A stretch of DNA of 25,178 nucleotides from a virus: positions 1 through 25,178 of the IMG/VR virus record IMGVR_UViG_3300038552_000125; one strand, written 5' to 3'. How positions within the stretch are numbered: the first letter of the stretch is position 1; every line of letters begins with the position of its first letter. This document shows, piece by piece, positions 1-22,717 of the stretch. Made by a program: the position numbers and the translations under genes. The notes beneath the pieces were generated by a model. The model saw only the letters and a program-made list of their open reading frames with translations, had not been told where the DNA came from and made no database searches.

Positions 1-164
1 CGGCCAAGCCGGAGATCACGCTCGCGAAGCTATTCGATGCCATGCGCTCACGCACGGACATCGATACGCTCGACGCCGACGCCACGCTGATCACACAGTT
101 GCCATCCGATCAGCAGGCAGAAGCAGCAGCGGAATATCACAGGCTGCGTACTACCTGGAGCTAG
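1..164 (+). CDS. 3' end of an unidentified gene
   Basis: An open frame enters from the left edge (codons begin at position 3) and ends at TAG 162-164, giving about 53 residues. The segment is alanine-, acid- and glutamine-rich and looks like a short helical C-terminal tail, with LDADATLITQLP followed by an EAAAEYHRLR segment. Similar short helical tails close some phage recombination or nuclease-associated proteins, but that resemblance is weak and I do not assign a function. The next gene starts two bases after this stop, so the two are probably in one transcript. The true start lies outside the window. Confidence 0.6.
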   Translation, partial: AKPEITLAKLFDAMRSRTDIDTLDADATLITQLPSDQQAEAAAEYHRLRTTWS

Positions 165-166
165 GC

Positions 167-436
167 ATGAAAATCACCAAAGAATGGCTGGAAGAATGCG
201 ATGCCTGCGAATCGCAAGTAGTGTTATTTGCCAGGCTCTATCCGAATGGCATGGAGTTAATCCGAGCTGCGCTTATAGAAGCCGCGAATGCCGGATTACA
301 AGTATCCTGGTTGGCCAACCATCTGGATATCAGACCGTCACTGTTGGCGGAGTACGAGCGCCAGGACGCGCCGCTGTGGGCGGAGTACAAGCGCCAGCAA
401 GCGCCGCTGTTGGCGGATGCATTGGAGCTTCCGTAA
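167..436 (+). CDS. 89-residue phage protein with 11-residue repeat tail
   Basis: The ATG lies two bases after the preceding stop, with a GGAG six bases upstream. The protein begins MKITKEWLEECDACESQV and then has a short ARLYPNG stretch. This resembles a group of small phage early-region proteins whose C-terminus carries repeated AEYxR units. Here the tail has two full 11-residue units, LLAEYERQDAP and LWAEYKRQQAP, and a third broken unit starting LLADA. There is no signal peptide or membrane segment. The function of this group is unknown. The repeat count is low, which suggests a shortened array. Family resemblance is from memory, so the call stays generic. Confidence 0.7.
   Translation: MKITKEWLEECDACESQVVLFARLYPNGMELIRAALIEAANAGLQVSWLANHLDIRPSLLAEYERQDAPLWAEYKRQQAPLLADALELP
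341..406 (+). repeat. Two tandem 33-bp in-frame repeats
   Basis: Copies at 341-373 and 374-406 differ at a few positions. Each encodes L(L/W)AEY(E/K)RQ(D/Q)AP. A third partial copy begins at 407 (ctgttggcgga) and diverges after about a dozen bases. The repeat period is a multiple of three, so gain or loss of units would keep the reading frame. Confidence 0.85.
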
Positions 437-522
437 TGCTCCTCCGCCGCCCTGAGATGATTACAGATCTCAACTGATTGCGAATTACCTGTGAGCGCGA
501 CAACTCTTCCCGCTATGGTCTC

Positions 523-530
523 GAGGAGGA
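523..530 (+). promoter_or_regulatory. Shine-Dalgarno site of a frameshifted small gene
   Basis: GAGGAGGA at 523-530 is a strong ribosome-binding match, followed by CAAT and ATG at 535-537. It is the clearest such site in this part of the window. It points to a start at 535, yet the frame opened there does not look like protein. The convincing frame is offset by one base (see the ORF at 537-695). Confidence 0.6.
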
Positions 531-536
531 CAATAT

Positions 537-695
537 GCATGGGCGAAGATCCGCACGAATCTGGACATCGAGCTGGCCAAGCAACCAGGGCGGTCACTGG
601 CGAAGGTGGCGATCTCCTCGCTATATTCGCCAGACCAAAACAGGATGTTCAACTACTGGCTGGAATCCGAACGGGAACTCAAATCCAAGAGTTAA
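537..695 (+). CDS. Small ORF (52 residues) with apparent one-base frameshift at its start
   Basis: The frame beginning GCA at 537 and ending TAA 693-695 reads as ordinary protein (for example AWAKIRTNLDIELAKQ, then SLYSPDQNRMFNYWL), with GC-rich third codon positions. The other two frames give low-quality sequence. This frame has no ATG, GTG or TTG between its upstream stop (TGA 492-494) and an internal ATG far downstream. The strong Shine-Dalgarno site at 523-530 and ATG at 535 are one base out of frame. Restoring one base after the ATG (ATG-GCA-TGG) would give MAWAKIRTNLD. Either the gene has a real one-base deletion, or this is a sequencing or assembly error. The product is unrecognised and has no membrane segment. 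Confidence 0.5.
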   Translation, partial: AWAKIRTNLDIELAKQPGRSLAKVAISSLYSPDQNRMFNYWLESERELKSKS

Positions 696-705
696 CTGGT
701 GGCCA

Positions 706-801
706 ATGCTGGGAATACTGCTTTGGTTGTTGAGCGCCGGAGTCATGGCGCTAGTAGTCTGGTGGTTGCTATCCGTTCTCATCAACATTATGGTGCCTTG
801 A
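706..801 (+). CDS. 31-residue single-span membrane peptide
   Basis: The ATG at 706 starts 10 bases after the stop of the previous small ORF and ends TGA 799-801. The peptide is almost entirely hydrophobic: MLGILLWLLSAG, then VMALVVWWLLSVLINI, ending in VP. It would form one long transmembrane helix with essentially no soluble part. The same frame is open upstream to 535, but that part reads as implausible arginine-, tryptophan- and serine-rich sequence, so I prefer the short form. It sits four bases before the outer-membrane barrel gene. A small inner-membrane or holin-like role is possible but unsupported. Confidence 0.45.
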   Translation: MLGILLWLLSAGVMALVVWWLLSVLINIMVP

Positions 802-805
802 ACAT

Positions 806-1447
806 ATGCTAGAAGCTCTGCTGTCCGCCCACTGGTATCTCGCCGCACAAGCAGGTTATGGAACTCTCGGAGGCCCTGGCACCGAGACCAGGATTGAGCA
901 GGATGCCAACCCCAAGAACCTGCCATGGAGAATGCTGAACGAAGGCTCGGCCTATCGTTTCGCGCTGGGCTATCGGTACGAGAAGTGGGGGCTCGAGCTG
1001 GGCTACGGGCGCCTGGGCCATTACACTCGCCGCATCGACACGGATTATCAGGTCGATGACACGGCGTTCGAGAAGGTGGCTGTGAAGGCGATCGATCTGC
1101 GCGGGCTGTACTACTTCAACGCGAAGGGACGGCTGACGCCCTATGTCTTCGCAGCCATAGCTGCCATCCCATACGAGCGCATCACTTGGGAAGGCAACCG
1201 CACTCCGGACGGAGGCCAGACCGAGGAGCTGCGCAACTGCATCAAGAGCGCCAGGAATACACTACCTGGATCGCTGTGCGCCTACGATCAATGGCTCTAT
1301 ACGGACGGGATAGCCTGGGGCTACGGAGGAGGGATAGGTGCAGAGTACAAGCTGACGAAGCACTGGGCCGTGCGGGGAGAAGCGAGCTTTATGCTGGGAG
1401 AGTTCCAGTCTGTTGCGGCCCGGGCAGGGGTGCAGTTCAACTTCTAG
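806..1447 (+). CDS. Outer-membrane beta-barrel protein (small porin/OmpA-like fold)
   Basis: The 213-residue protein shows alternating hydrophobic and aromatic strands typical of an eight-stranded outer-membrane barrel: WYLAAQAGYGTL near residues 10-21, YRFALGYRYEKWGLELGYGRL at about 50-70, a YGGGIGAEYKL segment near 173-183, and a C-terminal strand ending AGVQFNF. The terminal phenylalanine in that strand matches the beta-signal read by the BAM machinery. Cysteines 145 and 158 lie in one predicted extracellular loop and could form a disulfide. No signal peptide is visible: the barrel begins about residue 9 after MLEALLSA, and no alternative start exists upstream before the in-frame stop at 755. 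No clear Shine-Dalgarno site precedes the ATG. Phage-encoded barrels can alter host surface properties. Export of this one is unexplained. Confidence 0.75.
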   Translation: MLEALLSAHWYLAAQAGYGTLGGPGTETRIEQDANPKNLPWRMLNEGSAYRFALGYRYEKWGLELGYGRLGHYTRRIDTDYQVDDTAFEKVAVKAIDLRGLYYFNAKGRLTPYVFAAIAAIPYERITWEGNRTPDGGQTEELRNCIKSARNTLPGSLCAYDQWLYTDGIAWGYGGGIGAEYKLTKHWAVRGEASFMLGEFQSVAARAGVQFNF

Positions 1448-1449
1448 CC

Positions 1450-3465
1450 ATGCTGGTCTATCTCGCAGATTTGACGCATACCGGCCAGGTGGTGGCGAGT
1501 AACGTGTTCCCGCTCGGCATCGGCCTGATCGGTGCGAACATTCTGCGAGAGATTCCAGGCGCCCGCGTCGAGTTGTTCAAGTATCCCTCCGACTTGGACA
1601 GCGCGCTCCAACGCGAAGTCCCGGACGTGGCGGGCTTCGCCAACTACTCCTGGACTTGCAATCTAGGAATGGAATACGCCAGGCGCATCAAGTCGCGCTG
1701 GCCCCATGTAGTGATCATTGCCGGAGGCCCTAACTATGGCTCTACCGAAGAAGAGCAGCACGATTACTGGCGACGATTTCCATGGGTGGATTTCTACGTC
1801 TACAAAGAAGGGGAGCAAGCCGTTGTGCGGCTGTTGGCTGTACTTGAGCAAAGGAGCTGGAGCACTCAGGGAGTGCGAGTGCCGGGTTGCCATACAATGG
1901 AAAAAGGTTCCCTTGTCTCGCCTGAACCGCTACCTCGAATCCAGTCATTAGACGAACTCCCTAGTCCATACGTTGCCGGACTGATGGACAAGTTCTTCGA
2001 CGGCATTCTGATCCCGCTCATGCATACCACGCGCGGGTGTCCATTCTCCTGCTCGTTCTGTACAGAGGGGACCGCCTACTACAATCGTGTGGCCAAGCGC
2101 TCCACGCTGATAGATGACTTGACCTACGTCGGCATGCGGCATGGCACGATCGAGGATCTATACCTCTCCGATGCCAATGTCGGCATGTTCAAGGAGGATG
2201 CAGACAAGGCCAGAGCGATCGCGCAGACACAAGCCAAATATGGGTGGCCAAAGTATATCCATTGTTCGGCAGGCAAGAACCACAAAGAGCGCGTGCTCGA
2301 GTTCGCTCAGATCGTTGGCGGCGGCATGGGTGTGGCCGCATCTCTGCAGAGCACGAATCAGAAGGTGTTGGACAACGTCAAGCGTTCCAATATCTCGGTG
2401 GAGCAGCTCTCGGACGTCGCCAGGCAGGGCTCGAGGATCGATGCAAATACCTATGCCGAGATTATCCTGGGGCTGCCTGGCGATACCTTGGAAGCACACA
2501 CCCAGAGCCTAAGGGATTGCGTCAACTCCGGGCTATCGTACTTGCGCATGTATCAGCTGATCATGCTGCCGGAGACGGATATGAATACGCTGGAGACCCG
2601 TGAGCGGTTCGGCATGAAGACCATGTGGCGCATCATGCCGCGCTGCTTCGGGCGCTATCGGTTCCTGGAAGAGGAGTTCAGCTGTGCCGAAATCGAGGAA
2701 ATCTGCGTCTCCCAGGACTCGTTCTCGTTCGAGGAGTACCTCGAAGCCAGAGAACTGGATCTCACTATCGAGATTGCTCACAACACAAACCTTTTCCGAG
2801 AGCTATTTGGGCTCTGCGGGATTGTCGGAATCGAATGGTTTTCCCTACTACTGGCTTTCCATCAACGCAGGAAAATATATCTACCAGAGCTATATGATGC
2901 CTTCAAGGAACAAACAATCGCGCCTCTTTGGGATTCACGAGGACGGGCTTTAGAATTCGCGCAGTCTCATCTGGACCTGTACCTCACCGAGCAGCTCGGC
3001 ACCAATGAGCTATTCAACGCAAAGGCCGTGGCCTTCTTCACCCTGCAGCAGGAGCTACACGACTGCATGTATGTGGAAGCCCAGCGGATGATGCCTCAAT
3101 ACGGAGATTATCTTGAGCAAGCAAAAGATTTCAGCCTTCAAAGGAAACGGGATATCCTGGATCTTGAGCCACGACGCAGCCAAAGGTATGACTACGATTT
3201 CCCTGCGCTACTCGAATGCGATTTCGCCGGAGATCCTGACCAGTATCGAAGAGCTGTTACGGTCAATTTCTTCCACAGCCCAGATCAACGAGCCACCATC
3301 GAGCAGCTAGTCCGCCAATATGGAACGAGCACCACAGGGCTCGGGCGTATCCTGCTGCGTGCCCATATCAAGCGCCTCTTCCGCCAGATCGAGGCTAATG
3401 GCACCATCAGTGACAAAGGCTTCGAGACGAGCTACCGTAGGGCAAGCAATTTATACGGAGATTGA
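1450..3465 (+). CDS. B12-binding-domain radical SAM protein
   Basis: This is a 671-residue enzyme. The N-terminal 150 residues resemble a cobalamin-binding Rossmann domain (GLIGANILREIPG; AGGPNYGS near residue 92) but lack a clear DxHxxG cobalamin-ligand motif. The radical SAM core carries RGCPFSCSFC with cysteines 197, 201 and 204 (CxxxCxxC), which should bind a 4Fe-4S cluster for S-adenosylmethionine cleavage. The last 230 residues are a helical tail I do not recognise. I chose ATG 1450, two bases after the barrel gene's stop, because the frame upstream to 1186 overlaps the barrel gene and reads as arginine-rich shadow sequence. The next gene begins immediately after the TGA. Such enzymes occur in surface-polysaccharide clusters, where substrates are mostly unknown, so a sugar-remodelling or methyl-transfer role is inference. 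Confidence 0.85.
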   Translation: MLVYLADLTHTGQVVASNVFPLGIGLIGANILREIPGARVELFKYPSDLDSALQREVPDVAGFANYSWTCNLGMEYARRIKSRWPHVVIIAGGPNYGSTEEEQHDYWRRFPWVDFYVYKEGEQAVVRLLAVLEQRSWSTQGVRVPGCHTMEKGSLVSPEPLPRIQSLDELPSPYVAGLMDKFFDGILIPLMHTTRGCPFSCSFCTEGTAYYNRVAKRSTLIDDLTYVGMRHGTIEDLYLSDANVGMFKEDADKARAIAQTQAKYGWPKYIHCSAGKNHKERVLEFAQIVGGGMGVAASLQSTNQKVLDNVKRSNISVEQLSDVARQGSRIDANTYAEIILGLPGDTLEAHTQSLRDCVNSGLSYLRMYQLIMLPETDMNTLETRERFGMKTMWRIMPRCFGRYRFLEEEFSCAEIEEICVSQDSFSFEEYLEARELDLTIEIAHNTNLFRELFGLCGIVGIEWFSLLLAFHQRRKIYLPELYDAFKEQTIAPLWDSRGRALEFAQSHLDLYLTEQLGTNELFNAKAVAFFTLQQELHDCMYVEAQRMMPQYGDYLEQAKDFSLQRKRDILDLEPRRSQRYDYDFPALLECDFAGDPDQYRRAVTVNFFHSPDQRATIEQLVRQYGTSTTGLGRILLRAHIKRLFRQIEANGTISDKGFETSYRRASNLYGD

Positions 3466-4365
3466 ATGCGCATTCTATTGACTGGATCTTCCGGGTATGT
3501 GGGCTCTGCTTTGCTTCCTTTTCTTGCACGTTATCACGATGTGACGGGACTGGATATAGGATGGTTCTCTGATATAAAAGGTCCGGACATCAGATTCTGG
3601 AAGCCGGACAAGACGTATGATTGCATCATCCACTTGGCCGCTATTTCCAATGATCCGAGCGTGAGCTACTATCCGCGCCTATCATGGGAGACTGGGGTAC
3701 TTGCTACACAGCAACTCGCACAGCATGCCGCAAAGACAGGCTGTCGTTTCATCTACGCCAGCAGTGTGAGTGTCTATGGAGCCGATCGCGGGATGGTGAC
3801 AGAGGACATGGACCTGCATCCGCTATCCGACTACAACAAAACCAAGATGTGCGCAGAGCGCGTGCTGCTATCCTATCCTGAGATCAAGCCCCAGATCATC
3901 CGTCCTGCCACCATATGCGGCCTGAGCCCACGCATGCGCCTGGATCTGACAGTCAACATGCTGACCATGCAGGCGCTGACCAAGGGCGTCATGACGGTCC
4001 ATGGAGGACAGCAGTATCGTCCCTCCATTCACATAGACGATATGGTGGTGCTCTATCTGTTCATGCTTGAGCATCCGGAATTGACCGGAATATGGAATGC
4101 AGGCTTTGAGAATCACACCATTCTCGAGCTAGCTGAGATGGTAGCTGCGTTCACAGGAGCGAAAATCGAAATCACCGAAGAGCGCGATAGAAGGAGCTAT
4201 CAAGTCAACTCTGACAAGCTGCTCGCCACCGGATTTAAGCCAGCAAAAGGAGTGCGTGACGCTATAGAGGAATTGGTTGATGCATATAAGTGTGGCCGCC
4301 TACAGGATAATCCATTCTGGTACAACTTGGTATGGATGCAATACTTAGGGGTGAAAGACGAATGA
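3466..4365 (+). CDS. NAD-dependent sugar epimerase/dehydratase (extended SDR)
   Basis: The protein is 299 residues, normal for extended SDR nucleotide-sugar enzymes. It has the N-terminal dinucleotide motif GSSGYVGS (residues 7-14), an aspartate at the end of the second strand (D30) that favours NAD over NADP, HLAAISNDPS, the catalytic region SSVSVYG (99-105), and an intact YxxxK pair at Y123/K127. It should act in the cytoplasm on a nucleotide-activated sugar through a 4-keto intermediate. Whether it is an epimerase, dehydratase or reductase cannot be read from sequence. Its ATG directly abuts the radical SAM stop, and its own TGA overlaps the next start (ATGA). Confidence 0.88.
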   Translation: MRILLTGSSGYVGSALLPFLARYHDVTGLDIGWFSDIKGPDIRFWKPDKTYDCIIHLAAISNDPSVSYYPRLSWETGVLATQQLAQHAAKTGCRFIYASSVSVYGADRGMVTEDMDLHPLSDYNKTKMCAERVLLSYPEIKPQIIRPATICGLSPRMRLDLTVNMLTMQALTKGVMTVHGGQQYRPSIHIDDMVVLYLFMLEHPELTGIWNAGFENHTILELAEMVAAFTGAKIEITEERDRRSYQVNSDKLLATGFKPAKGVRDAIEELVDAYKCGRLQDNPFWYNLVWMQYLGVKDE

Positions 4366-4706
4366 TCCGCGACATCGCATGGCTAGAAGCCAAGATCGAG
4401 AAGATACCAGAGGCCGGTTGCTGGATATGGATGGGGGCCACTAGGGCATTCGGTCATGGCGTCATATCCAACCGCCCTCGTCCAGGCAATACGTATATAC
4501 ATCGTCTGGCATGGCGCTTGTACCGCGGGCATCTTCCGAATGAGTTGGATGTGCTGCATCGGTGTGATGTTCCGCAATGCGTGAACCCAGAGCATTTGTT
4601 CCTGGGTACTAAGCGCGACAACGCTCTCGACATGTGGCGCAAGGGGCGCGGCAATACGTCCCTGAATACCGCTAAGGGTTGGGAAAAAAGGAGACTAGCT
4701 CAATGA
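4362..4706 (+). CDS. HNH homing-type endonuclease
   Basis: A 114-residue protein of the phage HNH family: GCWIWMGA (C20), YIHRLAWRLYRG (46-56), the core VLHRCD with H66, CVNPEHLFLG with N75 and H78, then DNALDMWRKGRG. H66, N75 and H78 fit the beta-beta-alpha-metal nuclease site. The start at 4362 gives an ATGA overlap with the upstream epimerase, and the stop overlaps the next ATG in the same way, so the gene fits the operon without a gap. It interrupts a sugar-enzyme series with which it has no evident functional link. A selfish free-standing homing endonuclease is the usual explanation. A longer start at 4332 is possible but lies inside the epimerase gene. Confidence 0.88.
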   Translation: MIRDIAWLEAKIEKIPEAGCWIWMGATRAFGHGVISNRPRPGNTYIHRLAWRLYRGHLPNELDVLHRCDVPQCVNPEHLFLGTKRDNALDMWRKGRGNTSLNTAKGWEKRRLAQ

Positions 4707-5572
4707 GCACATGGCTCGTCATCGGCGCGTCCTCCTTCTCCGGGCGTCACTTCTGCCAATTCCTGCGCAAGCGAGGGGAAGAAGTAATAGAGGCTTCATT
4801 GCGTGATTCTTCCTTCCCTCATGCGGATCGCGTCGTGAACTTCGCCGCTTTGAATGTGGTGGCCCAGAGTTGGGAATGGCCACTAGATTATTTCCGCGTG
4901 AATGTCGATAAGCAGATTCCGCTCTGGAGAGATCTGGCACAAACGAACGTGCCATATCTGCACATCAGCACACCAGAGGTATACGGCTCGACCCATGGCT
5001 TCGTGCGCGAGGACGCTCCTTACAATCCAAGCACTCCCTATGCTGTCAGCCGAGCGTCTGCTGAGATGATGATCAAGGCTTACCAGAAGCGCTACAACTG
5101 GCCTGCAGTGATCACCAGGGCCTGCAACGTCTATGGACCTGGGCAGCAGCTCTATAGGCTCATCCCCAAGCTGATCGTGAGCATCAAGCGTGGCGTAAAG
5201 TTTCCTCTGGAAGGTGGAGGCCGTTCCATGCGCTCGTTCCTGCATATCGATGATGCCTGTGAGGCCTACTACCTGGCTGCGCTGCAGGATAGCGGCATCT
5301 ATAACATATCCGGTCCCGGCTATCATTCGATCGCATCTATAGTTCGCATGATATGCGAGGAGATGGGCGTTTTCTATTGGGAAGTCCTCAGCGATTACGA
5401 TGAGCGACCAGGTAAGGATGCGGATTACGAGCTGAACGACAACCAGATCAAGGCGCTCGGCTGGCAGCCAAGGATCCTCTTGCCGGAAGGCATCCGCAGC
5501 GTAATCGAATGGGTTGACAGGGAATGGGAGCACCTCAAGGATCAACCGATGGAGTACGAGTTCAGGCCATGA
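4703..5572 (+). CDS. NAD-dependent dehydratase/epimerase, RmlB/GMD-like, with altered active site
   Basis: The 289-residue extended SDR has GASSFSG (8-14), STPEVYG (89-95), NVYGPGQ (142-148) and FLHIDDACEAYY (about 179-190), the layout of dTDP-glucose or GDP-mannose 4,6-dehydratases. Two positions depart from the family. The usual YxxxK lysine is arginine here (Y113-AVS-R117), and the TDE triad of RmlB-type enzymes is T-P-E (T90, P91, E92). These could reduce activity or mark a different reaction. The ATG at 4703 is chosen for the ATGA overlap and the AAGGAG about ten bases upstream. An in-frame TTG at 4679 is less likely. It lies between the HNH gene and a classical SDR, with overlaps on both sides. 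Confidence 0.85.
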   Translation: MSTWLVIGASSFSGRHFCQFLRKRGEEVIEASLRDSSFPHADRVVNFAALNVVAQSWEWPLDYFRVNVDKQIPLWRDLAQTNVPYLHISTPEVYGSTHGFVREDAPYNPSTPYAVSRASAEMMIKAYQKRYNWPAVITRACNVYGPGQQLYRLIPKLIVSIKRGVKFPLEGGGRSMRSFLHIDDACEAYYLAALQDSGIYNISGPGYHSIASIVRMICEEMGVFYWEVLSDYDERPGKDADYELNDNQIKALGWQPRILLPEGIRSVIEWVDREWEHLKDQPMEYEFRP

Positions 5573-6252
5573 ATTGCATCATCCTGGGGTCGGATTCGGA
5601 TATCGCCAAGGGCTTGCAGTCTCATTTGGAGGCAGATGGCTGGAACATCCAGGGTTGGCGTCGTGGTGATAAAACAACATTATTTAATATTCCTTGGGAC
5701 CTCTTTCTGGTTGCCATTGGACGCATTTCGCCAGTCGGTCAGTGGATGGATATACCCATTTTGCAATGGCAAATGACGCTAGAAAGCAATCTGCTTGCCC
5801 CATTAGTTTCCGTACAGACTATGTGGCCATTGCATAATCCAGGAGCCTCCATTTGCTTCTTAGCTGGCAGCAACCCCAACACGATCATGGACGGCTATAG
5901 CGCCTATAACGTTAGCAAAATGGCCATGCTCAAGCTCGTGGAGCAGCTCGACCACGAGACACCGGATGCCAAGTTCTTCGCCCTGGGGCCTGGCACGATC
6001 CTGACGAAGATCCATAAGCAGAGCGCCGGATGGCACAATCCAAAGTTGGAAGCGGCGCAGGCAGCAAACGAGGATCCGCAAGTCAAGATCCGCAAAGTTT
6101 ACGAATGTTTGCAATGGTGCATAGCGCAGCCCAAGAACGTCATTGGCGGGCGCAACATTTGCGTGTCTGATCAGCCTGACGAATCGTTGTCGTTACGGCT
6201 ATCCGTGGATCCTGATCTGTTCAAGCTGCGCAGGAGAGAGAGATGGGACTGA
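5569..6252 (+). CDS. Classical short-chain dehydrogenase/reductase
   Basis: The 227-residue protein begins MNCIILGSDSDIAKGL, a degenerate form of the SDR TGxxxGIG nucleotide loop. Other SDR features are N74 in the NLLAP segment, a serine at S101 that may be the catalytic one, and an intact Y113-NVS-K117 pair. It should be an NAD(P)-dependent reductase or oxidase acting on a keto-sugar or its precursor, which would suit a product of the two neighbouring extended SDRs. The start is set by the ATGA overlap with the previous gene. A longer frame to 5524 is a shadow inside that gene. The stop overlaps the following tiny ORF by ten bases. The substrate is unknown. Confidence 0.82.
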   Translation: MNCIILGSDSDIAKGLQSHLEADGWNIQGWRRGDKTTLFNIPWDLFLVAIGRISPVGQWMDIPILQWQMTLESNLLAPLVSVQTMWPLHNPGASICFLAGSNPNTIMDGYSAYNVSKMAMLKLVEQLDHETPDAKFFALGPGTILTKIHKQSAGWHNPKLEAAQAANEDPQVKIRKVYECLQWCIAQPKNVIGGRNICVSDQPDESLSLRLSVDPDLFKLRRRERWD

Positions 6253-6347
6253 TTCTGCTGATGATCACTATGGGCTATGTCTTCGGCTGGCAGTATGCAC
6301 TGCTAGTCTTCTTCGCCTATTGGATGTTGTGTGAAGCTAGAGGATGA
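6243..6347 (+). CDS. 34-residue membrane peptide
   Basis: ATG 6243 overlaps the end of the SDR gene in another frame and runs to TGA 6345-6347. The peptide MGLILLMITMGYVFGW, then ALLVFFAYWMLC, is one or two short hydrophobic helices with the charged tail EARG. It fills a space otherwise without a gene, and its start overlaps the upstream gene as others in this operon do, which supports a real gene despite its size. The function is unknown. It could anchor or modulate the membrane step of glycan assembly, but nothing in the sequence proves this. Confidence 0.55.
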   Translation: MGLILLMITMGYVFGWQYALLVFFAYWMLCEARG

Positions 6348-6352
6348 TACCC

Positions 6353-6523
6353 ATGAAACGCGCCATCTTAAGGCATCATGGCAAAGAATCGGACTGGTCC
6401 TGCTGGCGCGTCGTGATCCTGCTTGCCGAATATGAAAATTCCTGGCTGATCTGGTCATGGCGAGAGCCATTCGGACGATACATCCACAAGCGTTCCTTGG
6501 GCGTTAGAGTGGAATCTCTATGA
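6353..6523 (+). CDS. 56-residue basic tryptophan-rich hypothetical protein
   Basis: ATG 6353 lies about nine bases after GAGG at 6340-6343. An ATG at 6344, overlapping the previous stop as ATGA, would add three residues and is a real alternative. The stop overlaps the next start as ATGA. The product begins MKRAILRHHGKESDWSCW and contains a short hydrophobic stretch (RVVILLAEYENSWLIWSW) and a basic C-terminal third. It is too short for family recognition. Its tight fit between two genes is the main evidence that it is translated. Confidence 0.55.
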   Translation: MKRAILRHHGKESDWSCWRVVILLAEYENSWLIWSWREPFGRYIHKRSLGVRVESL

Positions 6524-7050
6524 AGCTCGCTGAGGCACTGGCGCTGATGCTCGAGCGCCATGGTGTGCGCCATGTTTTCGGCGTCTCCGGAGGCGCTAAC
6601 TTGCACCTGATCCATGGGATATGCGATGCCACGAAAATCCAGTTCATTCCGACGACGCACGAGTGCAATGCTGGCTTCGCTGCTGATGCGTATGCTCGTG
6701 TTGCCGGCCTTGGGGTGGCTATGGCCACGTCTGGACCGGGAGCGACAAACCTCGTTACGGCGATCGCTACGAGCTATTACGACTCGGTCCCGGTCCTCTA
6801 CATTACTGGGAACGTCGCGACGCATAGGCAAAGCAAGCCTCTTGGCGTCCGGCAATACGGATTCCAAGACCATGACATCGTAGGCAGTGTGCTGGGATTC
6901 GTGAATTCAGCACATCAGTTGAAAGCTGCTGACGAACTAGAGTTCATGGTAAGAATTCTAATAAGTCAAGCCAAAGCCCATAGGTGCGGACCTGTACTTC
7001 TAGACATTCCAGATGATCTACAACGAGCTGAAATCACTTATCGCCCATAG
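6520..7050 (+). CDS. Thiamine-diphosphate enzyme, N-terminal (Pyr) domain: first half of a split acetolactate-synthase-like enzyme
   Basis: The 176 residues match the pyrimidine-binding domain of the acetolactate synthase-like family: LMLERHGVRHVFGVSGG, PTTHECNAGFAADAYAR with the conserved glutamate E48 that activates thiamine diphosphate, SGPGATNL (71-78), and GPVLLDIPDDLQ at the end. The family is normally one chain of about 550 residues. Here the frame stops at TAG 7048-7050 right after this domain, and the rest continues in the +1 frame from 7013. The start ATG overlaps the previous stop. In sugar clusters, relatives such as YerE (yersiniose) add a two-carbon unit to a keto-sugar. That role here is inference. 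Confidence 0.82.
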   Translation: MKLAEALALMLERHGVRHVFGVSGGANLHLIHGICDATKIQFIPTTHECNAGFAADAYARVAGLGVAMATSGPGATNLVTAIATSYYDSVPVLYITGNVATHRQSKPLGVRQYGFQDHDIVGSVLGFVNSAHQLKAADELEFMVRILISQAKAHRCGPVLLDIPDDLQRAEITYRP

Positions 7051-8170
7051 CGAGCACCCGATCTTCATCTGGGGCGCAGGCATCCGGCTCTATGCAGATG
7101 AGGCTAAGAGGATCGCAGAACGTTCAGGCATACCGGTAGCTTGCACCTGGGGCGCGATAGACTTGCTGGATGCTTATCACCCACTCATGGCAGGAGGATT
7201 TGGCACACATGGAACTAGAGCAGCTAATTTCGCAGTGCAAAATAGTGATCTCATCATCAGCATCGGATGCCGCCTCGATACAAAAGCAACTGGCAGCCCG
7301 CAGCATTTTGCGAGATGCGCTAGAGTTGCAATGGTGGATATTGATCCAGCAGAAATACAAAAGTTCGACAAACTCGGAAGACAAATCGATATCGGCATCT
7401 GTCAAGACGCAGGAGAATTCCTAAAGCATCTTTCCGAACAAACATTCGGCAATTATTGGCACGATACTTGGATTAGACGAATCCAGGAATGGAAGCTGCG
7501 CTATGCCATGCCTCGCTATGCCATGCCTAAGGTAGACTGGCCTGGGGTCAATCCATACCACTTCATGCAGGCTATCGCAGAGCATACTACTAAGGAGGAC
7601 ATCATATGCACGGACACTGGCTTCGCTCTGGGCTGGACGATGCAGGCCTTTCCGTTCAAGGGGGAGAGATTCATCCACGCATTCAACATGACGCCGATGG
7701 GCTACGGCCTCCCAGCGGCTATTGGAGCCGCTTTCGCGACTGGGCGAAGAGTCGTATTGATCACTGGCGACGGCTCGATCATGATGAGTCTGCCGGAACT
7801 GGCGACGGTCAAGCGCTGGAACTTACCGATCAAGATCATCTTACTGAACAACGGTGGGCACGGTATGTGTCGACAGACCCAACGCCAATGGCTCGGTGGA
7901 AGATATCACGCGACGAGCATACAAGGTGGCCTTGGATTCCCTGATTTCGTCTTGTGCTCTGAGAGTTTCGGAATCCGGCATGCACAGACTCTATCAGGAC
8001 TGTTCCACGGGAAAGATCCAGGATTCCTGGAAGTAGAGATCCATCCAAATGCCCAGCTCGTTCCGCAAGCCAAATATAGTCAGCCGATAGAGGACGCGGA
8101 TCCGCAGCTGCCATGGGAAGAATTGTGCGAGCAGATGATCATCCCACCATTAGAGAGACCTAAACAATGA
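7013..8170 (+). CDS. Thiamine-diphosphate enzyme, central and C-terminal (PP) domains: second half of the split enzyme
   Basis: The 385 residues contain the central Rossmann-like domain (PIFIWGAGIR; SDLIISIGCRLD; MVDIDPAEI) and the diphosphate-binding domain with TPMGYGLPAAIGAA and the GDG...NN motif, G252-D253-G254 to N279-N280, which binds magnesium and thiamine diphosphate. Together with the upstream ORF it makes a complete acetolactate-synthase-like enzyme. The ATG at 7013 lies inside the end of the first half, with a 38-base overlap and no visible Shine-Dalgarno site. The upstream in-frame stop is TAG 7001-7003, so any frameshift joining the halves must fall within 7004-7050. A two-subunit enzyme, programmed frameshifting or a disabling indel all remain possible. 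The stop overlaps the methyltransferase start. Confidence 0.82.
   Translation: MIYNELKSLIAHSEHPIFIWGAGIRLYADEAKRIAERSGIPVACTWGAIDLLDAYHPLMAGGFGTHGTRAANFAVQNSDLIISIGCRLDTKATGSPQHFARCARVAMVDIDPAEIQKFDKLGRQIDIGICQDAGEFLKHLSEQTFGNYWHDTWIRRIQEWKLRYAMPRYAMPKVDWPGVNPYHFMQAIAEHTTKEDIICTDTGFALGWTMQAFPFKGERFIHAFNMTPMGYGLPAAIGAAFATGRRVVLITGDGSIMMSLPELATVKRWNLPIKIILLNNGGHGMCRQTQRQWLGGRYHATSIQGGLGFPDFVLCSESFGIRHAQTLSGLFHGKDPGFLEVEIHPNAQLVPQAKYSQPIEDADPQLPWEELCEQMIIPPLERPKQ
7499..7528 (+). repeat. Perfect 15-bp tandem duplication inside the TPP gene
   Basis: The sequence cgctatgccatgcct occurs twice without mismatch (7499-7513 and 7514-7528). It encodes RYAMPRYAMP in the linker before the diphosphate-binding domain. 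The duplication preserves the frame and looks recent, because no differences have accumulated. Confidence 0.9.
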
Positions 8171-8910
8171 GTCGTGAACGAGCACAAGCGCTGCTGTGTG
8201 AACACCTGGGTCCTTTCGGCAAGATCGATTTCCCATATGTCCAGATGGGCAACATCGACTCGCTGCACCTGTTCGGTGATACCGAGTTGATGATCCTCGC
8301 CATGTACTGGTACAACCGAGAACGCTGGAAGCGATGTCTGGATATCGGAGCTAACCTCGGATTGCATTCGATCTGCATGGCCAGGATGGGCATGTCGGTT
8401 CAGGCGTTCGAGCCAGACCCAGGCCATTACGAGCGCCTTACCCGCAATCTACAAGTCAATCATGTCGATCATTTGGTAGAACCGCGCATGGCTGCGGTGC
8501 ATATCAGGGATGGCACAGCCAACTTCGTGCGGGTGCTCAACAATCTCACCGGCAATCACCTGGAAGGCTACAAAGCAAGCTATGGCCCGCGCGAGACCAT
8601 CGAAGTGGCGATTGTGGATTGCCGTTCTCTATGGGACCAAGCGGATTTCGCGAAGATCGACTGCGAAGGCAATGAGGCGGAGATCCTTCAGACTCTGACG
8701 CACAAGGATATGGAGCATCTGCAGCTCGTCGTGGAGGTACGCAACGAGCTGGCGGCCATTGCGATATGGCATCATTTCGAAGGGCTGCGAGTGCCCATGT
8801 GGAGCCAGAAACGCGGATGGGGCCTCGTATGCGGTATGGAGGACATGCCTACCGCCAATCGCCAGGGCAGTCTCTTCATCGGCCACAAAGGCCCATGGGA
8901 GGATCTGTGA
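8167..8910 (+). CDS. FkbM family SAM-dependent methyltransferase
   Basis: The 247-residue protein has the S-adenosylmethionine motif LDIGANLGLHS (58-68), FEPDP (81-85), and the FkbM signature KIDCEGNEAEIL (163-174), followed by VVEVRNE. FkbM enzymes usually O-methylate a sugar or polyketide hydroxyl, and they are frequent in surface-glycan loci and environmental phages. The start ATG overlaps the stop of the TPP gene, and the TGA overlaps the GTG of the nucleotidyltransferase. In this operon it probably methylates the nucleotide sugar or the transferred glycan. The position methylated is unknown. Confidence 0.88.
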   Translation: MSRERAQALLCEHLGPFGKIDFPYVQMGNIDSLHLFGDTELMILAMYWYNRERWKRCLDIGANLGLHSICMARMGMSVQAFEPDPGHYERLTRNLQVNHVDHLVEPRMAAVHIRDGTANFVRVLNNLTGNHLEGYKASYGPRETIEVAIVDCRSLWDQADFAKIDCEGNEAEILQTLTHKDMEHLQLVVEVRNELAAIAIWHHFEGLRVPMWSQKRGWGLVCGMEDMPTANRQGSLFIGHKGPWEDL

Positions 8911-9314
8911 TCCATGTGCTCACCATAGGCTGCTTCGATGGGCTGCATCCTGGCCACGTCGCCCAGCTCGAGGCAGCCAGGCAGCTCGGGGACTGGCTCA
9001 GTGTCGGACTGACGGATGATGACTTGGTGCGCAAAGAGAAGGGCGAGAATCATCCATTCTTCCCATACCACGAACGCAAGATGATGCTGATGGCCCTGCG
9101 TTGCGTGGATCATGTCTTCGTCAACCTGGATACCAAGCGTTCGATCGGCAACCTTCAGCCGTATATCTATGTGAAAGGGATCGAATACAAACGCAAAGGG
9201 CTGGAGGAAGAGCAGATGTGCAAATCTCTAGGGGTCAAGATAGTCTACATCGACAGCTCTCCGGTCTATAGCTCTACCAAGCTCTTTACTGGGCGCTGGC
9301 TGAATGATCGCTAA
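8907..9314 (+). CDS. HldE C-terminal-like nucleotidyltransferase (cytidylyltransferase fold)
   Basis: The 135 residues carry CFDGLHPGHVAQL with the HxGH nucleotide-binding motif (H14, H17 from the GTG start). Near the end, YSSTKL resembles the STTK segment of HldE and glycerol-3-phosphate cytidylyltransferases. It should transfer AMP or CMP to a sugar 1-phosphate. The GTG at 8907 is preferred because it makes a GTGA overlap with the methyltransferase stop and follows GGGAGGA. ATG 8895 in the same frame would add four residues. It precedes a PfkB kinase, so the two activities of bifunctional HldE are here on separate genes. Confidence 0.85.
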   Translation: MIHVLTIGCFDGLHPGHVAQLEAARQLGDWLSVGLTDDDLVRKEKGENHPFFPYHERKMMLMALRCVDHVFVNLDTKRSIGNLQPYIYVKGIEYKRKGLEEEQMCKSLGVKIVYIDSSPVYSSTKLFTGRWLNDR

Positions 9315-10161
9315 AGAATTCGATCTGCTCGATATCGCCTCCAAGAAGAAGGCGCTCTTCTGCGGGGAGCGCATCATCGATGTCTATCATTATGTGCATC
9401 CCTTGGGCAAGCCTACGAAGGATGCCATCGTATCGGTACAGCTCGAGAATAGCGAAGAGTTCTCCGGAGGCGTGCTCGCTGCGGTCAGGCATGCGAAGCA
9501 AATCTGCGAGTCGGTGGATATATGCGATGGCGGGACAGAGATCTGGAAAGAGCGCTGGGTAGAGAGCCAGCACGTGAGAAAGCTATTCGAGGTGTATCGA
9601 GTGAATGGCTGGGAGAAACCGAAGATCCCGGACATGAATGGCTACGATGTCGTAGTAGTCCTGGACTATGGACATGGGTTTGCCACCCAGGAATTCATAA
9701 ACGCTCTGCCATCAGCCAGATACTGCGCGGCGAACGTACAGACCAACTCCGGAAACTATGGCTTCAATCTTGCTACCAAGTACACATGCCTGGATTATCT
9801 GTGCGTGGATGAGCCGGAGGCCAGGCTGGCCACACAGAACCGGGATGGCCCGATAGAGGATTCGTTGCCGGCTTTGGGAAAGATCGCCCAGAAGGTCGTG
9901 GTGACACTGGGCAAGTCAGGCGCAATTGGCTATGAGGATGGCCACATCGTCCGCTGTGCTGCTTTCACGGACACTGTCGTGGATACCATAGGGGCCGGAG
10001 ATGCATTCTTCGCGGTAACCGCCCTGGTTGCGGAAGAGGCGGATATGATGAGCTTGCTGCGCATCGGAAATGCAGCCGGTGCGCTAAAGGCCAAGATCGT
10101 AGGTCATCGCAGAGGGATTACCAAGCATGAACTTATCGCTGAGTTGCGCAGGGTTTCTTAG
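9304..10161 (+). CDS. PfkB-family sugar kinase, HldE N-terminal-like
   Basis: The 285-residue kinase has GERIIDVYHYV at 21-31 and EFSGGVLAA at 52-60, as in RfaE/HldE kinases, TLGKSGAIGY (201-210), and the PfkB signature DTIGAGDAF (227-235) with the catalytic base D233. The HldE kinase domain phosphorylates D-glycero-D-manno-heptose 7-phosphate at C1. A related heptose or other phospho-sugar is the likely substrate here. It overlaps the nucleotidyltransferase by 11 bases and the isomerase by 35 bases. The resulting bisphosphate would need a GmhB-type phosphatase, and none is seen in the window. Confidence 0.88.
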   Translation: MIAKEFDLLDIASKKKALFCGERIIDVYHYVHPLGKPTKDAIVSVQLENSEEFSGGVLAAVRHAKQICESVDICDGGTEIWKERWVESQHVRKLFEVYRVNGWEKPKIPDMNGYDVVVVLDYGHGFATQEFINALPSARYCAANVQTNSGNYGFNLATKYTCLDYLCVDEPEARLATQNRDGPIEDSLPALGKIAQKVVVTLGKSGAIGYEDGHIVRCAAFTDTVVDTIGAGDAFFAVTALVAEEADMMSLLRIGNAAGALKAKIVGHRRGITKHELIAELRRVS

Positions 10162-10663
10162 CCTTCTGTCAGATGGGCTGTGCAACGTGGTGTGCGAGGG
10201 GCCTCAATTCTCCATGGAGAACATCGGCCAGGATGCACATATCTATCTAATCGGCAATGGCGGCTCTGCGGCCATCGCGTCTCACATCGCGAACGACTTG
10301 ACCAAAGTCTGCGGGAAGCGAGCGCATGCTCTTACCGATCCGGCAATCCTCTCCTGCATGGCCAACGATTACGGCTACAAGGAAGTCTTCTCCGAGCAGC
10401 TCCACCGCCTCATGGCTCCCCAGGATTGGCTGATCGCCATCTCGAGTTCCGGCCAGAGCAAGAATATCCTGCGTGCTGTGGAGGCAGCGCATGCCTATTA
10501 CGGGAACGTAGTGACGCTCAGCGGATTCGATGCCGATAATCCTCTACGCACCAGTGGGCATACGAATTACTGGATACCGTCGCACAACTATGGAGTGGTG
10601 GAGATTTCACACTTGGCGATTCTCCACGGCATAGTCAATCCTGGCATTACTGCGCAGGCATAG
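10127..10663 (+). CDS. SIS-domain sugar-phosphate isomerase, GmhA-like
   Basis: The 178 residues contain IGNGGSAAIASHIANDL (42-58), SSSGQSKN (106-113), LSGFDADNPL (131-140) and YGVVEISHLAILHG (155-168), the layout of sedoheptulose-7-phosphate isomerase. H53, E159 and H162 fit the metal and active-site positions. The residue aligned by eye to the E. coli GmhA catalytic Glu65 is D57 here, a variation I believe also occurs in other SIS proteins of surface-glycan clusters. It would start the pathway continued by the adjacent kinase and nucleotidyltransferase. The ATG lies 35 bases inside the kinase gene. The first 30 residues are atypical, so the start is less certain. It is the last gene of the plus-strand operon. 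Confidence 0.85.
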   Translation: MNLSLSCAGFLSLLSDGLCNVVCEGPQFSMENIGQDAHIYLIGNGGSAAIASHIANDLTKVCGKRAHALTDPAILSCMANDYGYKEVFSEQLHRLMAPQDWLIAISSSGQSKNILRAVEAAHAYYGNVVTLSGFDADNPLRTSGHTNYWIPSHNYGVVEISHLAILHGIVNPGITAQA

Positions 10664-10898
10664 GATTGTCCGGATCCCCGTAGCAGTCCAGCTTGATCTT
10701 GTGCGGGGAGATGGCTGCGTTCACCCTGGGGCGAGAGTCCGTTTCCCGCACAGCGAACGGCTGCTGGCAATAGGCATCCGCCAGTTTCTTGCCGTACTTG
10801 TCGATCTGGGCATTTGCGTCCTGTCCGAGCCATGTCGATACCGTGCCACAGCCTGACAGCATCAGGATTGCAATTATTGCTGCTGCTAGCGTTTTCAT
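10647..10898 (-). CDS. Small lipoprotein, candidate lysis (spanin-like) component
   Basis: The 83-residue protein starts with a lipoprotein signal, MKTLAAAIIAILMLSGC, with lipobox LSGC and acylated C17. The mature part is about 66 residues, has two further cysteines (DAYC, KLDC), and ends DPDNPMPAQ. It should be exported and lipid-anchored, probably in the outer membrane. It is translated with the holin candidate upstream (ATGA overlap, AGGAG about five bases before the ATG) and is the last gene of the late operon, where phages often place spanins. It lacks the proline-rich character and nested arrangement typical of Rz1, and no inner-membrane partner is visible, so a spanin role is tentative. 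Its 3' end overlaps the isomerase gene by 17 bases on the opposite strand. Confidence 0.7.
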   Translation of the reverse strand: MKTLAAAIIAILMLSGCGTVSTWLGQDANAQIDKYGKKLADAYCQQPFAVRETDSRPRVNAAISPHKIKLDCYGDPDNPMPAQ

Positions 10899-11131
10899 GT
10901 CTTACTCCTCTTGCTGATGAAAGATGCCACAAGACGCTCGGCGGTATCGCCGAAGCATAACATCGTAGTGGTTACGATGCTGGCCGTAGCTGCGATTCCT
11001 TCCGATCCAAGGTTGAGTTGATATCTGTCATCGAACCATGCGATCAAAATAACCACAGGGACAGCCGATCCACCTGCGGCTGCGCGAGTTTTCCATGAGT
11101 TGTTTCGTCTGTTCTTGATCTCGCCAGTCAC
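10895..11131 (-). CDS. Holin-like small membrane protein
   Basis: The start is GTG at 11131, overlapping the tail-fibre stop as GTGA. The longer frame to 11290 overlaps the fibre gene and is rejected. The 78 residues have a basic N-terminus (KNRRNNSWKTR), a hydrophobic segment (GGSAVPVVILIAWF), a short acidic linker, a second hydrophobic stretch (GIAATASIVTTTMLCFG), and a basic tail (SKRSKT). Two spans and basic ends suit a small class II-type holin. The position next to the fibre and a lipoprotein at the end of the late operon agrees. No endolysin is present nearby, so the lysis role rests on topology and context. Confidence 0.6.
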   Translation of the reverse strand: MTGEIKNRRNNSWKTRAAAGGSAVPVVILIAWFDDRYQLNLGSEGIAATASIVTTTMLCFGDTAERLVASFISKRSKT

Positions 11132-12831
11132 TTGAATCCCCTGTAATCCATCCAGCCCTTTGTATAGATCCAAACATTCTGAGCACCTGTAGCGCGCACT
11201 CCGATCTGTCCTGAAGTATTGGTCCATTGTTGATGCGGACCGCCTACAGCGGCAACTCCAGATGTGCCGGAACCACCTATAGAAAGCCATGCATCTGACG
11301 TTCCAAAACCCGGCGCAGTATCTAAAGCCTGTGGATCAGTAATCATTAATCCATAGCTTTGTATTCCGGTAAGAGTTACGGCTACGACGCCGTTCCATTT
11401 TATACGCACCGGAGGTACATTCACTCTAAGCAACTGCCGTGATGCCGTTGAAACTGCGGCGGCGGCATTGTCCATTGTGGTCTCGATATCTTGATATGCG
11501 AAATCGCTCCCATTTTGACTAGCAGCTACCCAAGACGAGTTTGTAGGTTGTGTTTTCGTGCAACCTAAATACCTATATATCCATGTACTGTTTGGTAACT
11601 CAGCACCAGGAAGAATAGGTGTTCCATTAGATGCATAGCTAGTGATTGTCGCAGTGAATCCTATGTCTGAGATACCTGATGTAATGTTATACATCAGAAA
11701 CCAAGCATACCAAGCATTCGCACTCATCGCGGCAGCAGATAATCTGGCCCCACTGCTCATTCCTATGGCAAATGTGCTTTGTGTCTTGGTGAGACCAGAA
11801 GACAACTTGATGTATCTGGTATTCTGCGAGTCAGTTGCCATTCCAGCAGAAATATCCATTGACGTGTTGGTTCCAGAATCGCGCAATAGTTCCAATCCGT
11901 TGATGAAGTTATCGATGATATCGGGATTTGCCTTATAGATTCCGATGACACGATGCGCAGTTGTGCTTTCAGCGACTACTTCTATTCTGTCCCCTTGGGA
12001 CATCACCAGATTGACGTTGCCTTGTGTGGTAAGATTCGCACCTGGTACGATCACACATGTGCTGTCGAACAGCAGATTCATCCGCAGGCCTGCGCGTGCC
12101 GCAGTGCCGAAGCTCGTTATCGAATTCGTACCTGTGATGTGGGCGTAATCACCGCCATTGTTGTAGATATCGATTGCTGCTGCAGAGGCTTCCGATGTAC
12201 CGTAGGCATTGCCTCCGAAGATCGGGACCGATGGATTGATTGCCGTCAGAATCCCGTAAGATGCAGCGCTCAGGCCAGCATCGAGACCGCCTGCCGTCAT
12301 GTTAACGACGACCTGGGTTGATCCAGAAGCCGAAGAAGCGGATCGAATCACTCCATATGCGCTACTCGGTGGGCCAGTCACCGAAAACTTGACTCTGCGA
12401 TTGACCTCCGCGGCGCCGGCTGCGGTCTGATCGCCCACCAGCGAGAATTGCTGCGCATTGATGAATGTCGGCGTAGGAGCCGCAGTCCATTCTTCTCCGG
12501 AACTCTGGCTGATGTCGTTGATGCCGGAGAGATCGTCCTTCGTCCAATATGGCGAAGTCGGAGGATCCGCATCAGTGGAAGGAGCGAACACGACTGTGAA
12601 CGTCTGGCTCTCCGGGAACCAGACCTCGCCACCGCTGGGCAGATTGCCGCCGGAATCCAGAACGATCGGATTGCTCCAGGCGGTTGCTCCCAGCGGATCC
12701 TTGTAGACCGTCTGCTTGGTGGTCGTCTCGTTCATGTAGAAGAAGAGCTGGCCACCATTGGCCGGCGTATTGCCGCCAGGAATGAACTGCGTGGACTGGA
12801 TCGGATCGGGAGCGAGGAAACAGGTAGGCAT
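11128..12831 (-). CDS. Tail fibre or receptor-binding protein
   Basis: The 567-residue protein opens with a segment (about residues 1-105) of the type that attaches podovirus fibres to the tail: FIPGGNTPANGGQLFFYMN, TVYKDPLGATAWSNPIVLD, SGGEVWFPESQTFTVVF. The rest is rich in S, T, G and A with little charge, typical of beta-structured fibres, and ends WIYTKGWMDYRGFK. It should be the virion part that recognises the host surface. The middle, encoded by about 11300-11950, is visibly AT-richer than the neighbouring genes, which may reflect exchange of the receptor-binding part. No pectate-lyase-type spike repeat or depolymerase motif is evident. It follows the ejection-protein gene after three bases. 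Confidence 0.78.
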   Translation of the reverse strand: MPTCFLAPDPIQSTQFIPGGNTPANGGQLFFYMNETTTKQTVYKDPLGATAWSNPIVLDSGGNLPSGGEVWFPESQTFTVVFAPSTDADPPTSPYWTKDDLSGINDISQSSGEEWTAAPTPTFINAQQFSLVGDQTAAGAAEVNRRVKFSVTGPPSSAYGVIRSASSASGSTQVVVNMTAGGLDAGLSAASYGILTAINPSVPIFGGNAYGTSEASAAAIDIYNNGGDYAHITGTNSITSFGTAARAGLRMNLLFDSTCVIVPGANLTTQGNVNLVMSQGDRIEVVAESTTAHRVIGIYKANPDIIDNFINGLELLRDSGTNTSMDISAGMATDSQNTRYIKLSSGLTKTQSTFAIGMSSGARLSAAAMSANAWYAWFLMYNITSGISDIGFTATITSYASNGTPILPGAELPNSTWIYRYLGCTKTQPTNSSWVAASQNGSDFAYQDIETTMDNAAAAVSTASRQLLRVNVPPVRIKWNGVVAVTLTGIQSYGLMITDPQALDTAPGFGTSDAWLSIGGSGTSGVAAVGGPHQQWTNTSGQIGVRATGAQNVWIYTKGWMDYRGFK

Positions 12832-12834
12832 GTC

Positions 12835-14283: not shown

Positions 14284-15023
14284 TATTTCGCCTTCAGGTA
14301 AAGCTCGTCATACAGTTCTTGCTCGCGCGTGGGATCCAGACGCCTGATGCCATTGCGGATCTGCTCGCGCTCATCAAATAGCCTGTCCAGGATCTTGCCG
14401 GATCGCTCCCAAGCAGCCTGATCCCGTCGATCTGCAGCCTCCGCCGAAAGTTGGCCAGCAATACGCTCCCGCTTCCGGATGTCGCGCAGCTGCTGTTCCA
14501 ACTGTTTCAGATTTGTTCCACGTGGAACAGTGCGCTTCGGCCTGGGCTTAGGCTTCTTCGCTTTGAGTGCACTCAGGATCTCGTCCTGCCTAGCCCTAGA
14601 GCGTTCCATTAGCTGGCGCTCCGCTGCCATCTGCAATTGCGCCTGTGGGCCAGCAGAGGCTTGGTTGAGGATCGAGGACAGGATCCTGCGTTGCTCATCC
14701 AGTTCCATTAGGTAATCATCCTGGAGCTGCCTGGATTGCTCCATCAACCCGGATTCTGCTGAATCCGTCATGATCTGGTCGAATACGGCTTTCTGCGATG
14801 CAGCATCCTCCTCTATCCCGCGCAGGAACTCTTCCTGCCGTTCCTGGGATCCGGCGATATCCGGCTGCTCTTCGATCATCTGTAGCATCTGGTCCTGGCG
14901 CGAGCGGGATTGAGATAGGGCGCTCTTCTCCATGAGCTTGAACTGGTCCCATGGATCGGCTTCTACAGCCTCTCTTGGCCCCGCGGGCTGGAAAGCTTCC
15001 CATGGTGAAGTGTCGTCCATCAT
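14283..15023 (-). CDS. Coiled-coil structural protein, hypothetical
   Basis: The 246 residues begin MMDDTSPWEAFQPAGP and are dominated by Q, E, R, D and L in long helices, with repeated QxEE and SRxRQDxxL patterns (for example SQSRSRQDQML at about 37-47 and MERSRARQDEIL further on). A lysine- and proline-rich hinge (KAKKPKPRPKR) follows near residue 155. There is no membrane segment. It overlaps both neighbours by one to four bases and lies between two putative internal virion proteins, so it may be a minor virion protein or an assembly factor. No family is recognised. Either of two adjacent ATG codons could be the start. Confidence 0.6.
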   Translation of the reverse strand: MMDDTSPWEAFQPAGPREAVEADPWDQFKLMEKSALSQSRSRQDQMLQMIEEQPDIAGSQERQEEFLRGIEEDAASQKAVFDQIMTDSAESGLMEQSRQLQDDYLMELDEQRRILSSILNQASAGPQAQLQMAAERQLMERSRARQDEILSALKAKKPKPRPKRTVPRGTNLKQLEQQLRDIRKRERIAGQLSAEAADRRDQAAWERSGKILDRLFDEREQIRNGIRRLDPTREQELYDELYLKAK

Positions 15024-16462: not shown

Positions 16463-16466
16463 AGTT

Positions 16467-17432: not shown

Positions 17433-17827
17433 GGCAATTCCTTCAATTCGTTTCTTGCGTCGAACAGACTTTCCTCTTCAGGCTCGATCAACTCGCGCTC
17501 GATAGAATACAAATCACGCAAGTCTGTCCTATGCACCGTCATGCATACAGAATCCTCGAGCGCCAGGACAGCACGCTTGGTCCCTGGCCTGGATACGATT
17601 ACCGTCGGAGCCTCATAGATTTCACTTCCTTCGTCGGATGCTACTTGTACGCGGCCTTTGGTGACGATATAGAAGTGCTCATGCTTATGTGTCTTGCCAA
17701 CGATCAGCGTACCAGCAGGCCGGATCAATTCTCTTGCATACATGCCATCGGCGAAGTAATGCCGTGTCACCAGGCCTGTAGCCTGTGGCATCTCGCGCAT
17801 GGCTTTCTGCAGTGCAGTTATGCTCAT
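17420..17827 (-). CDS. Cupin-fold protein in the tail gene block
   Basis: The 135-residue protein starts at ATG 17827, overlapping the upstream stop as ATGA. The longer frame to 17926 overlaps the upstream gene and is rejected. It has a single cupin-like barrel: YARELIRPAGTLIVG, THKHEHFYIVTKGRVQV with histidines 47, 49 and 51, and a second half with PTVIVSRPGTKRAVLAL. The histidines could bind a metal, though the usual glutamate spacing is not clear. Cupin proteins of this kind recur in phage structural operons as unknown proteins. Enzyme, sugar-binding and structural roles are all open. The acidic C-terminus (ELIEPEEESLFDARNE) may contact another virion protein. Confidence 0.72.
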   Translation of the reverse strand: MSITALQKAMREMPQATGLVTRHYFADGMYARELIRPAGTLIVGKTHKHEHFYIVTKGRVQVASDEGSEIYEAPTVIVSRPGTKRAVLALEDSVCMTVHRTDLRDLYSIERELIEPEEESLFDARNELKELPCPG

Positions 17828-22713: not shown

Positions 22714-22717
22714 GTTA

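Follow-up and report, generated by a model that had tools for sequence, protein, structure and literature searches.

On the usual view, an outer-membrane barrel reaches BAM only with the help of a Sec signal. How, then, is a phage gene to be understood that encodes such a barrel and keeps the BAM signal while the export signal is absent? It may be an annotation trap, or it may point to another route by which phages place outer-membrane proteins. A gene of this kind is located in the 25,178-base virus record IMGVR_UViG_3300038552_000125, the whole of which was analyzed and is referred to as the window in the following. Besides the head and DNA-ejection proteins listed in Table 1, its structural genes include those for a scaffolding protein and for head closure Hc3. 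Relatives of the head protein are encoded in seven bacterial-genome contigs (e.g., Paraburkholderia, Rhodanobacteraceae and other proteobacterial records), and because they sit in proteobacterial genome contigs, the host of the phage is likely to be proteobacterial as well. Inside the structural module, the gene at 20255–22444 codes for a protein that combines two glycosyltransferase family 2 domains; it has relatives in 53 loci and perhaps decorates the virion or the host surface.

The larger part of the window, positions 7669–25131, is letter-identical to a second record, IMGVR_UViG_3300038469_000032 (17.4 kb). When the comparison is extended to position 25178, all six mismatches fall at 25132–25167 at the right end, a pattern that is expected because contig ends are unreliable. 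Positions 1–7668, which include the barrel gene, are not covered by any second record found. In this part, the codon score of a gene at 523–695 points to coding in frame 3 (+12.3 bits over 53 codons), a frame that does not match the ATG at 535 with its good Shine-Dalgarno sequence just before it; at the frame break near 535–545, either the gene is broken or the sequence is locally in error.

Table 1. Coordinates of the features discussed, numbered from the first base of the window except for the barrel of the related phage G002
Feature	Position	Strand	Basis
Tandem in-frame stops TAG TAG, barring an upstream in-frame extension	752–757	+	Reading frame
Stretch open in the barrel frame, no ATG, GTG or TTG in 16 codons	758–805	+	Codon scan
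Uncharged hydrophobic peptide of 31 aa in another frame, ending 4 nt before the barrel ATG	706–801	+	Codon score neutral
PF13505 outer-membrane β-barrel without signal, 213 aa; start codon just ahead of strand 1	806–1447	+	Pfam, host-only HMM, codon score
Putative strand 1, HWYLAAQAGYG, residues 9–19	830–862	+	Pfam match starts at residue 9; counterpart of strand 1 in the alignment of 21 host barrels
Cysteines 145 and 158, both in the longest putative loop	1238–1279	+	Read from translation
C-terminal BAM β-signal RAGVQFNF	1421–1444	+	Pattern test
Gene that follows the barrel after 2 nt, for a B12-binding radical SAM protein	1450–3465	+	NCBIfam NF033712, Pfam
P22-coat-type major head protein (MCP)	22968–24161	−	phrog_283, E 5e-71
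DNA-ejection family protein	Window, structural genes		phrog_598, E 3.5e-32
PF13505 barrel of G002, 187 aa, beginning MFIEFYAVLAIGYG	L084:1429–1992		PF13505

The original prediction had attributed barrel strands and a C-terminal phenylalanine β-signal to the protein, and the assignment as a barrel and the β-signal both hold. The Pfam family PF13505 (OMP_b-brl) matches it with an E value of 2.5e-12 (47.7 bits versus a cut-off of 28.7); residues 9–193 correspond to profile positions 21–150, and the first 20 positions of the profile, which hold the end of the signal, are missing. A model built exclusively from 21 host barrels finds the protein with an E value of 2.4e-14 among 4192 stop-to-stop ORFs of at least 100 aa, and the codon score reaches +72.9 bits over 213 codons. 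The last residues fit the pattern polar-x-G-x-x-hydrophobic-x-aromatic, which we take to describe the β-signal recognized by BAM. This pattern is present at the C-terminus of 13 of 5394 ORFs of at least 80 aa, four of the 13 being copies of the window barrel and of a second phage barrel introduced below, and it is matched by 8 of the 21 host barrels and by both phage barrels. In an amphipathic-strand test, the window barrel attained a z of 1.31 with 46 of 500 shuffles equally good, a value that overlaps both with the host barrels (median 2.48, range 1.18–3.98, 14 of 30 scored) and with ten other window proteins taken as negatives (median −0.71, maximum 1.36). AlphaFold2 predictions from single sequences, i.e., with no alignment, had pLDDT values of 30.0 for the window barrel and 31.5 for the second phage barrel and are uninformative on the fold. 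The ORF is confirmed as a real outer-membrane barrel, its predicted fold resting on the profile matches. A disulfide between the two loop cysteines is possible.

As a yardstick for the N-terminus, PF13505 was searched for in 36 genomes from the class of Paraburkholderia silviterrae. The family was found in 27 of these genomes with 81 matches in total, 70 of which, counted by hand, start at profile position 8 or before and thus within the signal region. A crude signal-peptide rule was then applied to the 30 best-scoring host barrels, a selection biased toward signal-bearing matches in that PF13505 itself includes signal positions. The rule was passed by 27 of the 30 and failed by both phage barrels; it is unspecific, as 5 of 23 other genes of the window pass it as well. 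The three host barrels that fail are L107, L128 and L131, and by eye L107 and L131 contain signal-like stretches that lack either a usable start or K/R. When 21 host barrels were aligned with the phage proteins, the former proved to carry a segment before strand 1 that is absent from both of the latter.

It had also been noted that the window barrel possesses no visible signal peptide, that its mature-like sequence begins at about residue 9 and that no upstream start exists. All of this holds. Eight residues precede the matched barrel, the tandem stops at 752 and 755 are themselves preceded by an in-frame TGA at 731, and none of the 16 codons that follow the stops can serve as a start. In the barrel frame, 758–805 scores as non-coding (−8.3 bits over 16 codons). 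The signal rule was failed from every codon position tried as a start between 758 and 809 and also from the ATG at 806. No strong Shine-Dalgarno sequence is visible before this ATG, the ribosome site as read from the sequence is weak, and no promoter match was obtained in the window between positions 1 and 1700. Sec-type signals are used elsewhere in these phages: a spanin-like lipoprotein of the window passes the rule, as do three proteins of the related phage G002 and one of another relative, G001.

The second phage barrel is encoded by G002 (IMGVR_UViG_3300044699_000050, 43,943 bases), whose head protein agrees with that of the window to 77% and whose radical SAM protein does so to 68% in the best segment. 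It matches PF13505 with an E value of 5.2e-7 (30.4 bits versus the cut-off of 28.7). The match covers residues 25–187 only, and the position of strand 1 is therefore taken from the alignment, in which both phage barrels start at the same place relative to the 21 host barrels and the host signal region is absent. An in-frame stop is found four codons before the ATG, a Shine-Dalgarno sequence GGAG lies five nt before it, and a sigma-70-like promoter (TTGACA-16-TATGAT, 11 of 12 positions matching) ends 26 nt before it. Transcription from this promoter would give a leader some 20 nt long, and given this leader and the stop four codons upstream, there would be no room to encode a signal before the barrel. 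The amphipathic-strand z is 1.71, between those of hosts and negatives, and two cysteines lie in the loop that matches the cysteine loop of the window barrel. With 24% identity and a two-sequence E value of 6e-5 the phage barrels are distantly alike; among 5394 ORFs their kinship has E values of 0.011–0.022, short of the inclusion line. It is possible that both descend from one signal-less ancestor. The ends of the G002 record share an 896-base repeat (L003 and L085; 97.55% identity, 19 mismatches, 3 gaps), and several genes of this phage are broken into pieces; the record may represent a complete but noisy genome. The barrel frame is open throughout. Upstream of the barrel promoter, at L084:1231–1365, a sequence that matches a sigma-70 promoter at 12 of 12 positions is followed by a well-folding stretch of about 95 nt (−37 kcal/mol, z −3.38) with a strong hairpin and a U run at its end. 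It is possibly a small RNA gene; it matched no Rfam family, an 18-base pattern derived from it occurred in no other viral contig, and its hairpin was absent from the output of the terminator scan. Taken together, the two barrels indicate that the signal is in all probability truly absent, a trait common to at least one other phage.

Further members were not encountered. Across 84 relative records (50 + 34, many of them fragments), PF13505 had one match, the G002 barrel. A pattern scan with the window barrel returned one stretch from viral_contigs and seven from genome_contigs, none of them a relative; the corresponding scan of viral_contigs with the G002 barrel returned only itself, and a pattern derived from the alignment of both returned 57 stretches from viral_contigs, again without a relative. 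Searches of INPHARED by tblastn with either barrel gave nothing at E values up to 1. As a single query, the window barrel found no match in 50 of the 84 relative records, the G002 barrel not being recovered either, none in six prophage-bearing genomes and none in 369 class-level genomes at an E value of 1e-4; a PDB search yielded one chance match (E 0.11). Neither the two-barrel model (5394 ORFs) nor the host model (4192 ORFs) brought a third barrel past the inclusion line. Among the Pfam families that matched the window barrel at E values up to 1, PF06316 (Ail_Lom) did not appear, and no Lom-like or other PHROGs match was seen at that limit. In the literature searched, no title or abstract opening describes a phage outer-membrane barrel without a signal. 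The case for such proteins accordingly rests on two members of weak mutual kinship, one of them from the noisy G002 record.

In the window, the barrel directly precedes a plus-strand sugar cassette (1450–10663) that comprises genes for the B12-binding radical SAM protein, an epimerase, a dehydratase, SDR proteins, an FkbM methyltransferase, HldE- and GmhA-like proteins and a TPP enzyme that is divided between two ORFs. The radical SAM protein resembles the KedN5-type model NF033712 (E 4.2e-46, under that model's own cut-off), and its Pfam domains, B12-binding and Radical_SAM, each score slightly under their cut-offs. From the enzymes encoded, the product is perhaps a C-methylated or branched heptose. 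The cassette occurs in four records, i.e., the window, G001 (L002), G002 (L003 and L085) and G016 (L096), with the HldE-like pair missing from G001 and FkbM from G016. The TPP enzyme is split in all four; in the window its overlapping or adjoining ORFs (6520–7050 and 7013–8170) encode the N-terminal domain and the middle and C-terminal domains, respectively. A barrel adjoins the cassette in two of the four records and at opposite ends, that of G002 following gmhA, and G001 and G016 have no PF13505 match. That it accompanies only two of the cassettes, and at different ends, fits a separately acquired moron and not a fixed part of the pathway.

Three ways to account for the N-terminus had been offered originally, namely loss of the signal, an unusual mode of export, and a former junction with the preceding hydrophobic peptide, and loss is the best supported of them. 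The reading that we favor, and to which we give about even chances, is that of a captured outer-membrane protein gene trimmed down to the part for the mature barrel, with a product that is made without a Sec signal. A gene for an 8-stranded outer-membrane protein would have been captured from a host and would then have lost its signal; its translation starts at the ATG at 806, past the would-be Sec cleavage point. The product, having no export signal, would be barred from the Sec-to-BAM route in the cell that produces it and would most likely stay cytoplasmic, unfolded or aggregated, until lysis. On this reading the protein may have a selected function or may be an inert passenger, and an inert fate and delivery from the virion or at lysis each fit. 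Intact β-signals, the G002 promoter and the loop cysteines in both barrels speak for function, and pure inertness is at odds with the intact frames, the β-signals and the promoter. A role in the virion is made less likely by the rarity of the trait and by the location of the genes away from the late operon.

If function is denied altogether, the gene becomes a passenger in decay, the truncated remainder of an outer-membrane protein gene whose frame has yet to break. The lack of any close relative in viral_contigs, genome_contigs, INPHARED and the 369 class-level genomes agrees with this, as do the weak ribosome site in the window and the neighboring gene (534–695), whose likely start already lies in a different frame. 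However, both barrel ORFs run uninterrupted from end to end, their β-signals are intact, and in G002 the promoter and the Shine-Dalgarno sequence are well placed. We consider decay unlikely; it also overlaps with the favored loss of the signal from a captured gene, which does not decide about function.

Conversely, the barrel could lack a signal by design, as a working outer-membrane protein that gets into the periplasm independently of Sec. It would travel in the virion and be ejected together with the DNA, or be released by lysis, and BAM would fold it only then, by way of the intact β-signal. An export signal would spoil packaging into the virion, and its absence would be a necessity. Two phages have barrels at two sites that begin at the same point relative to strand 1, both β-signals are intact, the G002 gene possesses its own promoter and Shine-Dalgarno sequence, and cysteines are present in the loops of both proteins. 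P22-type phages eject proteins, and the window encodes a DNA-ejection family protein (Table 1). T7 gp14, P22 gp7 and DEV gp72/gp73 are described as ejected outer-membrane pore proteins in PMC10925440 and lend the idea some precedent. Against it, the window barrel belongs to the sugar-gene operon on the strand opposite to the late head and tail operon, the G002 barrel forms a unit of its own, the trait is rare, with one case in 84 relative records, many of which are fragments, and the ejected pores are not known to be small BAM barrels. Design is quite unlikely in our judgment, and its generalization, according to which some P22-coat-like phages omit the export signal from their barrels so that folding follows periplasmic delivery by virion or lysis instead of synthesis, must be called improbable. 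Were it true, the barrel would fold in the outer membrane of the newly infected cell, whose surface it could immediately close or change to the disadvantage of other phages, or else in the outer membrane of the dying cell.

Another proposal concerns the peptide encoded at 706–801, which might be fused to the barrel by ribosomal frameshifting, or be split from it by a sequence error, and serve as its signal or anchor. The peptide ends so close to the barrel ATG, with its frame one base off, that the thought suggests itself; the region is not covered by a second record, and a frame break does exist near 535–545. Yet the peptide is devoid of D, E, K, R and H, its hydrophobic run of about 28 residues is too long and too hydrophobic to be a signal that is cleaved off, and its codon score of +1.1 over 31 codons is neutral. 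The joined N-terminus fails the rule, in contrast to 27 of 30 host barrels, and in the barrel frame 758–805 scores as non-coding. The earlier suggestion that it had once been joined to the barrel as a signal sequence is not upheld, and the proposed comparison with homologues for a fused signal gave no support either: the G002 barrel lacks such a peptide and has a promoter and intergenic sequence in the would-be place of a signal. A frame error as the main reading was rejected on account of the unlikeness of the peptide to a cleaved signal and of the identity of the window with a second record over 17.4 kb. Fusion in either form is very improbable. Because its codon score is neutral, the peptide may or may not be translated; if it is, it is probably a separate small membrane peptide. 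The gaps on both sides of the barrel gene, 4 nt (801 to 806) and 2 nt (1447 to 1450), resemble those of a tight operon, perhaps with barrel translation coupled to that of the peptide. It is hardly credible, finally, that Sec or SRP reads the native N-terminus (MLEALLSAHWYLAAQAG in the window, MFIEFYAVLAIGYG in G002) as a signal that is atypical, stays uncleaved or is very short. In favor, the N-terminus of G002 is fairly hydrophobic, with a best Kyte-Doolittle mean over nine residues of about 1.8; against it, the window reaches only about 1.0, no K or R precedes the hydrophobic stretch, and an acidic residue lies inside it.

The phage barrels differ from each of the known systems that they resemble. 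With the PF13505 barrels of Proteobacteria they share a profile match over most of the barrel, the strand pattern and the C-terminal β-signal, but 27 of 30 host members pass the signal rule, whereas the phage proteins have nothing before strand 1. T7 gp14, P22 gp7 and DEV gp72/gp73 presumably lack signal peptides as well. The likeness consists in action at the outer membrane without Sec export (PMC10925440); these proteins are, however, late virion proteins of another fold, while the window barrel is of the BAM type and encoded outside the late operon. Lom of phage lambda is comparable as a small outer-membrane barrel from a tailed phage that stands outside the structural functions of head and tail. 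According to PMC12309495, Lom carries a signal peptide at its N-terminus and takes its place in the membrane of the host, in contrast to the barrel of the window with its missing signal. Outer-membrane barrels that are encoded by phages and equipped with a signal are already known from Lom, and the signal-less form would be the new part.
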